This document shows, in pieces, positions 5,559-33,875 of a stretch of DNA of 51,027 bases. The stretch is from Deltaproteobacteria bacterium (lineage in GTDB: Bacteria; Myxococcota; Myxococcia; Myxococcales; 40CM-4-68-19), in the NCBI GenBank assembly GCA_005879535.1, contig VBKI01000031.1, positions 1 to 51,027 on the forward strand. Direction: 5' to 3'. A model generated the notes under the pieces. The model had not been told where the DNA came from. It saw nothing but the letters and a program-made list of their open reading frames with translations, and ran no database searches. Every line of letters starts with the position of its first letter. Positions within the stretch are counted from its first letter, which is position 1. A program made the position numbers and the translations under genes.

Positions 5559-6485
5559 TTGAGGCGAACGCTGCTCGTCCTGCTCACGGCGTCGATCGCG
5601 CTGCCTGCGGAAGCGCGCGTGCCCAGGAAAGCCAGGCGCGCGCCGGTGATGCGCGCCGAGGACGATCCGCGCAAGAGGGGCCGCGCGTTCCCCAGGGCAT
5701 CGATCACCTTCGCCGCGCCGGCGGATCTCTCGCAATCGGCCGAAGGAGCGGTGGCCGTCCGCGTGGTGGTGAAAGGTTACGCGATCGGAGCGCTGCGGCC
5801 CGGCGGTCCCGTTCCGCACACCCACCTCATCGTCGACAACGAGCCGGCGATGGAAATCCCCGATGCGAACGCGACGTGGATGCTCGGCGGGCTCTCGCCA
5901 GGGCCGCATTTGCTTCGCGTCGTGCTGTGCAGGCCCTGGCACGAGGTGGTGAAAGCGCCGAGGGCATTCGCGATGGTGCGCGTCTGGATGGGGCCGAGGA
6001 TCCCCGGCAAGGCCGGCAGGGCCGCGGAGTCCGTGACCTGGCCCCAGCCAAGAAAGCCGATCCTCACGTACGTCCTGCCGGTGGGCGCACCCTCCGAGCA
6101 ACTGGTGCTCGCGCGCCTGGAAGAGAATCCTCCCGACGCTGCCGCCGACGCGGGGCAGGCCAAGCCGCCGGACCCGGTCGCGACTCCGCTTCCGGGGGCG
6201 AACCGGCCCGTGCTCGATTTCTACCTGTCGAATGCCAAGCTCGGCCGCCGCGGCGACAAGGTCCGCATCGTGCTCGACCGGCGCGAGCTTCCGTTGATCA
6301 CCGACTGGAAGCCGCACCTCTTGCGAGGGGCACGCGGCGGCGCGCACCGCATCTCGATCGATCTGCTGAGCCGCAAGGGCGTGAAGGTGAACAACGTGCT
6401 CAACCGGAGCGACCGCGTGTTCACCGTCGAGAGCCTGCAGCGAAAGGGCGGATCGCGGCTCGGCGATTCGCGTCTCTCACGCTGA
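5559..6485 (+). CDS. Exported protein of unknown function
   Basis: A 308-residue protein read from a TTG at 5559, preceded by a GGAGCGCAGGG stretch. The N-terminus (LRRTLLVLLTASIALPAEA) is a signal peptide with an Ala-x-Ala-like cleavage site. Two similar beta-rich segments are visible. The first (residues ~80-130) contains HTHLIVDNEPAM and LSPGPHLLRVVLC. The second (~220-300) contains VLDFYLSNAKLG and GAHRISIDLLSRKG. Both resemble the 'ligand value / length of chain' layout of DUF4399-like periplasmic Ig-type folds, but I do not assign a family. It lies downstream of the phosphoesterase and overlaps the convergent rhodanese gene by nine bases. Function not recognised. Confidence 0.72.
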   Translation: MRRTLLVLLTASIALPAEARVPRKARRAPVMRAEDDPRKRGRAFPRASITFAAPADLSQSAEGAVAVRVVVKGYAIGALRPGGPVPHTHLIVDNEPAMEIPDANATWMLGGLSPGPHLLRVVLCRPWHEVVKAPRAFAMVRVWMGPRIPGKAGRAAESVTWPQPRKPILTYVLPVGAPSEQLVLARLEENPPDAAADAGQAKPPDPVATPLPGANRPVLDFYLSNAKLGRRGDKVRIVLDRRELPLITDWKPHLLRGARGGAHRISIDLLSRKGVKVNNVLNRSDRVFTVESLQRKGGSRLGDSRLSR

Positions 6486-6893
6486 AGGGTCGCCCTTCTC
6501 CACCGGCTTGCCGGCCTTCTGCCAGCCCTGGATGCCGGCCGACATGATGTAGACGTTCTTGTATCCGAAGCTGAGCGCCGCACGGGCGCCCTGGTGGCAG
6601 GCCATTCAATGCGTGTTCGCGCAATAGAACACGAGCTTGCGCGACTTGTCCTTGGGGAGATCGCTCTCCTTCACCGCCTTGAAGTCGACCCACTTCGCGG
6701 TGGGGACGTGTCCCTTGGCGTACACGTCCTTGCCGTTGTTGTCGAAGATGTCCGCGTCCTTCTTGGCGATGAGATCGGCGACCTGATCGATGGTCAGATC
6801 GCCGAAGCCCTCTTCCTTGGCCGAGTCGGCGCGCGCCGTTCCCGCGAACAGCAGCACGAGAGCGGCGAACAGGGTCCTGCGCAGGATTCTCAT
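6477..6893 (-). CDS. Exported rhodanese-domain protein with in-frame UGA, candidate selenoprotein
   Basis: Translation from ATG 6893 gives a signal peptide (LRRTLFAALVLLFAGTARA) and a single rhodanese domain. A TGA at 6608-6606 falls inside the active-site loop, giving VFYCANTH-(UGA)-MACHQGARAA. The same frame continues without another stop for 42 codons through the normal end of the fold (NVYIMSAGIQGWQKAGKPV). Exported rhodaneses of this type usually have FYC-x4-C, so UGA replaces the second loop Cys; the FYC Cys is kept. A hairpin follows at +15 (listed separately). I read UGA as selenocysteine, giving 138 residues. The alternative is a nonsense mutation, and a standard caller would stop at 6606. 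No clear ribosome site precedes the ATG. Confidence 0.72.
6573..6591 (-). promoter_or_regulatory. Candidate bacterial SECIS hairpin of the rhodanese gene
   Basis: On the minus strand, starting 15 bases after the UGA, the mRNA reads GGGCGCC-CGUGC-GGCGCUC. That is a 7-bp stem (one G-U pair) with a 5-base loop whose second base is G. Bacterial SECIS elements sit directly downstream of the UGA inside the coding region, with a short apical loop carrying a G in its first two positions. This fits, with the loop G at +23. GC-rich coding DNA forms hairpins easily, so the hairpin alone is weak; the match to the peroxiredoxin hairpin strengthens it. Confidence 0.55.
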
Positions 6894-6924: not shown

Positions 6925-7353
6925 TCAAGCGCTCTTCTCCATCGAAACATGGGGAATGGCGGTACCGTCTTGCACCGCGCCGGAGGCGGTATACCCAGCC
7001 TTCTCGTAAAAGGCTTGTGCCTGTACCTGTGCCCAGAGGGTCAGCTTTGTTGCTCCGCGTCGACGCGCCTCGTCCTCGAGAAACGCGAGGAGCGCCTTCC
7101 CGACGCCGCGCCCGCGAGCGTCATCGATGACGGCCATCCGTTGAATCCTGGCAATCCCGGGGGCAACGAAGATCAACCTGCCGGCGCCGCACGCAACCCC
7201 ATCGAGCACCGCCAGCGCATGCACAGCGTCGGAGTCAAGCCCGTCCAACTCGAGGCTCGGCCGCACGCCCTGCTCTTCCACGAACACCGTCCAGCGCAGC
7301 CTCAGGCACTGCTCGACGTCCTTCGCGCTCCGCGCGAGTCGAACCTCGATCAT
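6925..7353 (-). CDS. GNAT family N-acetyltransferase
   Basis: A 142-residue single-domain GCN5-related acetyltransferase. The acetyl-CoA-binding signature is RIQRMAVIDDARGRGVGKALL (residues ~70-90), and the C-terminal YEKAGY motif is near residue 120. The N-terminal WTVFVEEQGV segment is typical of the ElaA/YjcF-like group acting on small amines or unknown substrates. I chose the ATG at 7353 because it overlaps the stop of the upstream transporter as ATGA; an ATG seven codons earlier is possible. Substrate cannot be told from sequence. Confidence 0.87.
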   Translation of the reverse strand: MIEVRLARSAKDVEQCLRLRWTVFVEEQGVRPSLELDGLDSDAVHALAVLDGVACGAGRLIFVAPGIARIQRMAVIDDARGRGVGKALLAFLEDEARRRGATKLTLWAQVQAQAFYEKAGYTASGAVQDGTAIPHVSMEKSA

Positions 7354-9570
7354 GCCTGCTTCGGCGCCAGCCATCGCTCGGTGGCCACCGCCCAGAGAAC
7401 AGCGCCGAGCACGCAGAAGAGCGCGAGCGAGACCAGATTGCTGGTGGCGAATCCGGGGATGGTGCCGCCCACGTTGATGGAGTTGAGGAAGTTCCGCGTC
7501 GGTTCAGAGAGCTGCAGGAACGCGAGGATGGTGCCGATGACGCTGGCGCCCGCGATCAGCCCGGAGGCGAACAGCACGCCGGGACCGCTCTCCGCCTCGG
7601 CTCCGCTCAGCTTTCGGCTCGCGGTCCGGTCGGCGATGTACCGGACGATGCCGCCCATCATGATGGGGGTGCTCGTCGACAGCGGCAGGTAGACGCCGAC
7701 GGCGAAAGCGAGGCTCGACATCCCGCAGAGCTCCAGGACCACGGAGACGAAGACGCCGATCAGCACCAGCCCCCAGGGCAGACGCTGGGTCATGATCCCC
7801 TCGATGATGAAGGACATGAGCACCGGCTTCGGCGCGCTGAACTTCGACTTCACCTTTTCGCCGTTGTCGCGCGTGTCGAGCTTTCCGTTGATGCCGGGAT
7901 CCTCGAGATACTTGATGTGCCCGGTGTCGTCGACGAGGTACTTCCCGGCGGGCACCTCTCCCCGTGGCTCGCGCAGCCAGATCACGTTGTAGGCGTTGGC
8001 GTCGCGCCCGGAGTCGGCGCCGCGCAGGCGCTCCTTCTCGCCGCTGTAGTCCGCCTCGCTGAAGCGCACGTTCGGGTAGCTCCGCGCCGCGAACACCGTT
8101 CCGGCGTCGTTGAGCTTGAGAATCACGAATCCAAGCACCAACGCGGATGCCAAGGCGCCCACCAGGATGGCGATCTGCTGACGCGACGGGGTCGCGCCGA
8201 CCAGATATCCGGTCTTCAAGTCCTGCGAGGTGGTGCCGCCGTTGGAGATGGCGATGCAAGCCACCGCGGCGATGCTGAGGGCGGCGACCTTGTAGGGAGG
8301 AGTGACCCAACCGAGGGCGAAGAAGATCAGCGACGTGATCAACAGGGTGGCGACGGTCATCCCGGAGATGGGATTCGACGAGCTTCCGACCTCTCCCGTC
8401 AAGCGTGAGCTGACGGTCACGAAGAGGAACCCGAGCACCAGGATGAGCACCGCCCCGAGGACGTTGATCTTGAAGGAGGGGACGAGCGCGCAGACGATCA
8501 CGATCAGCAGCGAGCCGACGCCGACCACCCAGAGGGGGATGTCCCGGTCGGTCCGCAGCGTTCCCGAAGGTGCCTGCGAGCCGCTCAACGAGCGCATGCC
8601 GCGCATGGCACCGCCCACGATCGTCGGCAGCGACTTGAACAGCGAGATGATGCCTCCGGCGGCGACCGCGCCAGCTCCAATATACAGAATATACTGATGC
8701 CAGACATCGTCGGTGCTCATGTTCTTGATCAGCGTCGTGGCCGGATAGATCGGCGTCGTGGCTGTGCTGCCGAAGAGCTTGATGGCCGGCATCAGCACCA
8801 GGCTGGAGAGGATGCCGCCGGCGCCCATGATCATCGCGATGAGAGTCCCGATGATGTAACCGACTCCCATCAACTCCTGCCCCACTTCGCGCGATAGGTT
8901 GCCTCCGTCGTAGGTCCTTGAAGGCGCCGAAGGCTTTGTACCCGAGGGCGAAGACGCCGCCGACGCCGAGGCCGGCGAACACCGTCTTCGCGGTGGTTCC
9001 GCCGGTCTCGCCGGAGATCAGCACCTCCGCGCACGCGGTCCCTTCGGGGTAGACCAGCGTCTTCGCTTCCTTGACGATCAGCGCGCGGCGCAGCGGGATC
9101 ATCATCAGGATCCCCAGCAGGCCGCCGAGAATGCTGACCAGGATCACCTGCGAGATCTGCAGGTTGTACCCGAGGATCAAGAGTGCCGGCATGGTGACGC
9201 CCACGCCGAAGGCGATGCTCTCGCCCGCGCTGCCGGCCGTCTGGGTGATGTTGTTCTCGAGGATGGTCGCGCGCCGGGTGCGGAAGACGCGGGTGAAGCC
9301 GCGAAAGATGGTGATCGAGAGCACCGCCACCGGGATGGAGGCGCTGACCGTCAAGCCGACCTTCAGCACCAGGTACATGCTGGAAGCGCCGAAGAGGATG
9401 CCGAGCAGCGTGCCCACGATCAGCGGGACCGGCGTCAGCTCGGGAATGTCCTGTTCAGCGGGGATGAATGGCTTGTGCGCAACCTCTTCCGACGCGATGG
9501 GCACCCGGTCCGCGGTGGCCGTCCGCGGCGCTTGCGACTCGGGAGCCTGCTCGAGCGCGGGCATCTGCAT
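7350..9570 (-). pseudogene. OPT family oligopeptide/metal-complex transporter, interrupted by one frameshift
   Basis: Two frames together spell one OPT transporter of about 739 residues. The first, from ATG 9570 to about 8917, contains [31 protein letters not shown] and [14 protein letters not shown]. The second, from about 8915 to the stop at 7350, contains [40 protein letters not shown] and a final helix ending WLAPKQA. The joint is at AAGGACC: removing one base yields continuous sequence through ...[18 protein letters not shown]. No other lesion is visible and coding signal is strong on both sides. It may be an assembly error, a recent inactivation or a programmed shift. The stop overlaps the GNAT start. 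OPT proteins import peptides or siderophore-metal complexes. Confidence 0.82.
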
Positions 9571-33431: not shown

Positions 33432-33875
33432 ATGCCCATGCTGAACGTCGGCGACCCGGCGCCGGATTTCACCCTCACTTCGCATGAGGGCAAGACGGTG
33501 AAGCTCAGCGATCTGCGCGGCAAGAACGTCATCCTCTGGTTCTACCCGAAGGCCGACACCCCTGGTTGAACCCTGCAGGGCTGCGGGCTCCGGGATCGAG
33601 CCCGTGATCTTGCCGCGAAGAACGCGGTCATCCTGGGCGTGAGCTTCGATACCGTTCAGGAGAACAAGCACTTCGCGGAAAAATTCAACTTCCCCTATCC
33701 GCTCTTGTCGGATCCGACGCGCGCCATGGGCGTGCAGTACGGCGCGGCGGACACCACGCAGAGCGGAAACGCGAAGCGCGTCGCGTACATCATCGGCCCC
33801 GACGGCAAGGTGAAAAACGTCTTCGCCAAGGCGAACACTTCGACCTTCGCCGCCGACGTGCTCGCTCTTCTGTAA
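33432..33875 (+). CDS. bcp: BCP-type peroxiredoxin with in-frame UGA at the peroxidatic position, candidate selenoprotein
   Basis: From ATG 33432 (GGAGG ribosome site) the frame reads [30 protein letters not shown], then TGA (33567-33569), then TLQGCGLRD and on in the same frame to a stop at 33875. In BCP/PrxQ proteins the motif is ADTPGCT....C, so the UGA replaces exactly the peroxidatic Cys; the resolving Cys five residues later is kept. The rest of the fold is intact ([29 protein letters not shown]), giving 147 residues. A hairpin starts at +15. Selenocysteine peroxiredoxins are an established bacterial selenoprotein family. Standard calling would report two fragments. Confidence 0.85.
33584..33604 (+). 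promoter_or_regulatory. Candidate bacterial SECIS hairpin of the peroxiredoxin gene
   Basis: CGGGCUC-CGGGAUC-GAGCCCG: a perfect 7-bp stem beginning 15 bases after the UGA, with a 7-base loop whose second base is G at +23. Two further G-U pairs can extend the stem downward. Offset, stem length and loop-G position equal those of the rhodanese hairpin at 6573-6591. Confidence 0.65.

Follow-up and report, generated by a model that had tools for sequence, protein, structure and literature searches.

The consensus described for bacterial SECIS elements (bSECIS) combines a stem of 4–16 bp and a loop of 3–9 nt, located 16–37 nt from the UGA codon, with a minimum free energy (MFE) below -7.5 kcal/mol, and the loop contains a G in its first two positions, which is usually followed by G or U (PMC13188914). 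Rhodaneses and peroxiredoxins (Prx) containing selenocysteine (Sec) are already listed selenoprotein families (PMC13188914, PMC9312934). Form 1 of the selenoprotein rhodaneses is characterized by PF00581 and the motif UxxS, the motif UxxC is absent from the five rhodanese motifs given, and selenoprotein peroxiredoxins of the PrxQ/Bcp type carry TxxU (PMC13188914). The list published for Anaeromyxobacter dehalogenans in 2006 includes a peroxiredoxin, FdhA, SelD and others, and no rhodanese (PMC1794560). Here, we report on two genes with an in-frame UGA that are encoded within the window, i.e., the whole stretch of 51,027 nucleotides that was analysed, and on the hairpins located downstream of these UGA codons.

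Two UGA-containing genes and the hairpins behind their UGA codons

The features are the following, with offsets counted from the UGA:

6477–6893, minus strand: Sec-containing rhodanese-like gene, 138 aa, Sec at U96 in the motif CANTH-U-MACH, predicted from the read-through translation and from UGA-type orthologues found through the class
6606–6608, minus strand: UGA codon 96 in the rhodanese gene, putatively encoding Sec, at the rhodanese active-site Cys position, where TGC or TGT is aligned in Cys orthologues
6573–6591, minus strand: rhodanese bSECIS hairpin, 7 bp, loop CGUGC at +22
6477–6479, minus strand: terminating UGA of the rhodanese gene, used as internal control
33432–33875, plus strand: Sec-containing PrxQ/Bcp-type peroxiredoxin gene, 147 aa, Sec at U46 in the motif DTPG-U-TLQGC, predicted with the help of orthologues
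33567–33569, plus strand: UGA codon 46 in the PrxQ gene, putatively encoding Sec, at the peroxidatic Cys position, where TGC is aligned in Cys orthologues
33582–33606, plus strand: PrxQ bSECIS hairpin, stem of 7 bp beginning at +15, or of 9 bp if two G-U pairs are included, loop CGGGAUC at +22

The rhodanese-like protein matches PF00581 (E 1.3e-16) and two NCBIfam selenoprotein rhodanese models, the latter far below cut-off only, while the PrxQ protein matches PF00578 (E 8e-37) and, under the cut-off of the model, NF006960 (E 3.1e-33). By eye, a likely signal peptide is present at the N-terminus of the rhodanese (6893–6825, minus strand; MRILRRTLFAALVLLFAGTARA), and because of it the Sec-rhodanese is probably exported. 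In the same part of the window, on the minus strand, an OPT-family transporter (7350–9570) is split into two frames that overlap, one running from 9570 to about 8900 and the other from 8885 to 7350, each matching part of PF03169, which would be explained by a frameshift or an assembly error.

The geometry shared by both genes, which an earlier note on this DNA had described as a 7-bp stem from +15 followed by a loop that starts with C at +22 and has G at +23, is confirmed. In the rhodanese gene, the stem GGGCGCC (6591–6585) is separated by the loop CGUGC (6584–6580) from its partner GGCGCUC (6579–6573), all on the minus strand; in the PrxQ gene, CGGGCUC (33584–33590), the loop CGGGAUC (33591–33597) and GAGCCCG (33598–33604) follow each other on the plus strand, and the stem is extended to 9 bp from +13 when the two G-U pairs are counted. 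Downstream of the terminating UGA of the rhodanese gene no bSECIS-like hairpin is found.

Observed in one sequence, this hairpin geometry is weak evidence. Of the 884 TGA triplets on both window strands, 17 are followed by some stem of 7 bp that starts at +15 and encloses a loop of 3–9 nt, and in eight of these 17 cases a G is present in the first two loop bases; the rhodanese and the PrxQ hairpin are the only ones located in genes with Sec-type homology. At 10,727 codon positions in the clear open reading frames of the window, the background of this geometry amounts to 0.58% when one of the first two bases of the loop has to be G, and to 0.037% when a CG loop is required. Synonymous shuffles that follow the codon usage of the window regain the 7-bp stem, the early G and the loop at +22 in 10.7% of cases for the rhodanese and in 2.0% for PrxQ, and as the stem bases overlap with conserved Ala and Arg codons, pairing partly follows from the protein sequence. 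The comparison of folding stability with shuffled controls that had been proposed in the earlier note was performed for the UGA and the following 45 nt: it speaks against an exceptional rhodanese hairpin, since 80% of the shuffles are as stable, and it is marginal for PrxQ (4.4%). Taken alone, the stability test would therefore have fallen short of a proof. A search of the window with Rfam gave zero matches at the gathering threshold, and reading across single TGAs in the other long frames revealed no clear third selenoprotein in the window. It is the position, the conservation and the covariation of the hairpins, i.e., the comparative evidence, that settles their identity rather than single-sequence stability.

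Orthologues with UGA or Cys codons and the Sec machinery

Rhodanese orthologues were searched in 147 genomes of the class. The bSECIS test is passed by 37 of 37 UGA-type rhodanese loci vs. 2 of 10 Cys rhodaneses (Fisher p 1e-7) and by 34 of 35 UGA-type PrxQ loci vs. 1 of 15 Cys PrxQ (Fisher p 2e-10), both values being uncorrected for phylogeny, and as the orthologues are related and not independent, pooled probabilities overstate independence. All 37 UGA-type rhodanese loci have a hairpin whose loop, of the type N-G-[U/G] or G-[U/G], is located at +21 or +22, and none of the ten Cys-type loci has such a hairpin at this place. Considering representatives only, which for the UGA rhodaneses means a single locus from each genus and a second locus from one of them, the +22 hairpin is present in 13 of 13 rhodaneses, while synonymous shuffling predicts 1.5, and in nine of nine PrxQ (1.4 expected), and a hairpin at +18 is present in five of five further PrxQ representatives (0.05 expected). 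Lack of conservation in Sec orthologues, named in the earlier note as an outcome that would count against its proposal, is not what is found: the hairpin is kept in the UGA forms and is missing at this place in the Cys forms.

In genus g2 of the same family, the rhodaneses of both genomes (G007, G008) are Cys forms (UGC) without the hairpin, the PrxQ locus read from G007 is a Cys form as well, and the SelD matches are weak and of paralogue grade, none being selD-grade. A search for further related loci yielded three remote rhodaneses only. Among the 15 Cys PrxQ, a single one (L066 of genome G114, with TGC) retains the GUU-loop hairpin of its clade; because selD of G114 keeps a TGA, this locus probably represents a recent Sec-to-Cys change with a remnant SECIS.

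The check for covariation of the stems that had been suggested earlier was also carried out, and it is positive for the rhodanese stem. Among the stem cells of 31 distinct rhodaneses of the UGA type, 97.7% are paired, compared with 24–58% in slid controls, in which the partner was moved by 1–3 columns; compensatory changes, i.e., changes on both sides, occur at three of the seven stem pairs, amounting to 10 such cells vs. 1.7 in shuffles. Pooling rhodanese and PrxQ in the +15 class, 401 of 406 cells pair, with base pairs that differ between families at the same offset. Besides the stem, the loop is conserved at synonymous sites (CGU/CGG, AGU, GGU). The early loop G followed by U or G (CGU in rhodanese, CGG in PrxQ) is conserved in all +22-class orthologues, and the Arg codon at +22 is CGU or CGG in 24 of 24 UGA rhodaneses with Arg at this position and in 24 of 24 PrxQ of the +22 class; CGC, though being the commonest Arg codon of the window (48%), is used in none of these 48 codons.

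The genome (5.16 Mb) contains selA, selB, selD and a tRNA-Sec (70.2 bits, anticodon TCA according to ARAGORN). The selB match lies above the cut-off and includes the SelB-wing_2 and wing_3 domains, and the selD gene itself has an in-frame TGA. The selB gene (L001, G000:C67) overlaps with the stop of an aldehyde dehydrogenase gene directly upstream, while selA (C77), selD (C33) and the tRNA-Sec (C38) are found on other contigs.

Probable Sec insertion, shared offset and rival explanations

We regard it as nearly certain that both hairpins are bacterial SECIS elements, at which SelB would bind and the in-frame UGA would be read as Sec to yield a Sec-rhodanese and a Sec-peroxiredoxin. This view is based on the hairpins themselves, which are conserved, covary and go with UGA as opposed to Cys forms, and on the presence of selA, selB, selD and tRNA-Sec. 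SelB binding, UGA read-through and the enzymatic roles are what we infer from sequence. With the ribosome at the in-frame UGA, the mRNA hairpin just downstream would display the loop G, followed by U or G, above a stem of about 7 bp. SelB, loaded with GTP and Sec-tRNA(Sec), would bind the hairpin through its C-terminal winged-helix domains, and Sec would be inserted in place of termination.

The frequency at which synonymous shuffles regain the hairpins, together with the unexceptional rhodanese MFE, fits the explanation that GC-rich codon usage and the encoded protein sequence (Ala-Ala-Arg-Ala-Ala) give rise to the hairpins incidentally, the UGA codons being true stops or sequencing errors. 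This is rendered highly improbable by the UGA at the same codon that is accompanied by the hairpin across many genomes (all 13 rhodanese representatives against 1.5 expected), by the covariation of the stem, by Cys orthologues of similar amino acids that lack the hairpin, and by the complete Sec machinery. We give equally little credit to a hairpin whose main effect is to slow the ribosome or to promote read-through of UGA in general, without SelB-specific recognition: read-through can be promoted by stable GC-rich hairpins 3' of stops, but here the loop is conserved at synonymous sites as well as the stem, and the UGA/hairpin pair is missing from the rhodaneses of genus g2, which is without a selD-grade match.

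The earlier note had taken the common layout as a sign of a common SelB recognition rule in this organism. A rule by which SelB gauges a fixed distance, with the stem at +15 and the loop at +22, would agree with the offset being common to rhodanese and PrxQ in family f1 and to both in f2; however, in the same genome the loops lie at +19 (FdhA), +33 (SelD) and +26 (SelL-like), and the PrxQ hairpin of f6 and f7 differs, with its loop at +18. The fixed distance is therefore very unlikely, if marginally less so than the two explanations above, whereas the bSECIS layout, the loop motif and the type of stem are common to these genes and remain from the original claim. The two genes for FdhA (formate dehydrogenase) that contain a UGA have 7 bp from +12 with the loops AGUUU or GGUCU, and SelD has 7 bp from +26 with the loop GGUCU. 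The SelD hairpin is fully paired with compensatory changes in 24 distinct orthologues and is missing at that place in four of four fetched Cys SelD; a hairpin nearer to the UGA of SelD (AGCUCCG-CCCGU-CGGAGCU, loop at +15) was dropped, as its loop is without an early G and every UGA SelD sequence pairs in the hairpin whose loop lies at +33. A SelL-related redox protein (L206, G000:C53, about 135035–135331) has an in-frame TGA in HYG-U-ALC, matches NF040769 above the cut-off and is followed by 7 bp from +19 with the loop AGUUG; judged by these features it is a further selenoprotein of this genome. A second peroxiredoxin (L195, G000:C101:14769–15125) with an in-frame TGA in FTGG-U-TKEM has a weak candidate hairpin, at about -4.9 kcal/mol and with the loop perhaps at about +18. 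Within the families searched, which define the scope of the scans for other selenoproteins, the selenoprotein genes of the genome have in common a small loop N-G-[U/G] on a stem of about 7 bp, at a spacing that ranges between about 17 and 32 nt. The use of the geometry as a query for further genes, also proposed earlier, failed: a covariance model built on the rhodanese class retrieves nothing from the genome but the rhodanese gene (next best E 0.2) and misses even the PrxQ hairpin.

The position of the hairpin also differs between clades. In UGA-type PrxQ, families f1, f2 and f5 place the loop at +22, whereas f6 and f7 have a hairpin of different pairing, with the loop GUU at +18, a contrast that lies partly between subfamilies. 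UGA-type rhodaneses have CG loops at +22 in f1, f2 and f7, GGUCG at +22 in f6, and GGUC at +21 in three loci (L099, L103, L104). The SECIS appears to have moved or re-formed while the gene remained Sec-coding. On balance, we favour the view that a SECIS can shift within the same gene in one class, as in PrxQ with UGA and a similar protein being kept, that one SelB reads loops from about +18 to +33 within a single genome, and that the distance drifts.

Comparison with described elements and selenoprotein families

If both window UGAs are selenocysteine codons, as very probably they are, two genes are full length that routine annotation would truncate. Furthermore, the class offers a natural data set, in which the same genes occur in a UGA and in a Cys version and selD is present in some genomes and missing from others. 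The requirements of SelB could be measured on it, i.e., G and then U or G in the loop, about 7 bp in the stem, and a variable distance.

A SECIS with a bulged U in the stem is that of E. coli fdhF. The FdhA elements of this genome resemble it, with a 5-nt loop [A/G]GUYU, G at +20 and U at +21, and for the FdhA element of f2 a pairing that leaves U bulged at +14 is also possible; the rhodanese and PrxQ elements differ from it in being located 3 nt farther from the UGA and in having CG loops. From the bSECIS model (PMC13188914) there is no essential difference: as the earlier note had supposed from the published layout, both hairpins agree with it on all points, with 21 nt of spacing, 7 bp, loops of 5 nt (rhodanese) and 7 nt (PrxQ) and an MFE of -14.0 (rhodanese) and -17.9 kcal/mol (PrxQ), both under the limit, although that of the rhodanese is not below its synonymous shuffles. 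Compensatory structure (rhodanese, SelD) and genomic Sec machinery, which are also bSECIS criteria, are present. The window PrxQ corresponds to the selenoprotein peroxiredoxins with TPGU, PF00578 and the UGA at the peroxidatic position, nothing differing at the family level except that the hairpin varies between clades here. The window rhodanese shares with form 1 of the selenoprotein rhodaneses the domain and the Sec at the active-site position, and members of f2 and f6 have UxxS; in contrast, the window gene and its f1 and f7 orthologues have UxxC. Compared with the described systems, a Sec-rhodanese with UxxC, and in PrxQ a SECIS located at +22 or +18 depending on the clade, would be minor novelties.
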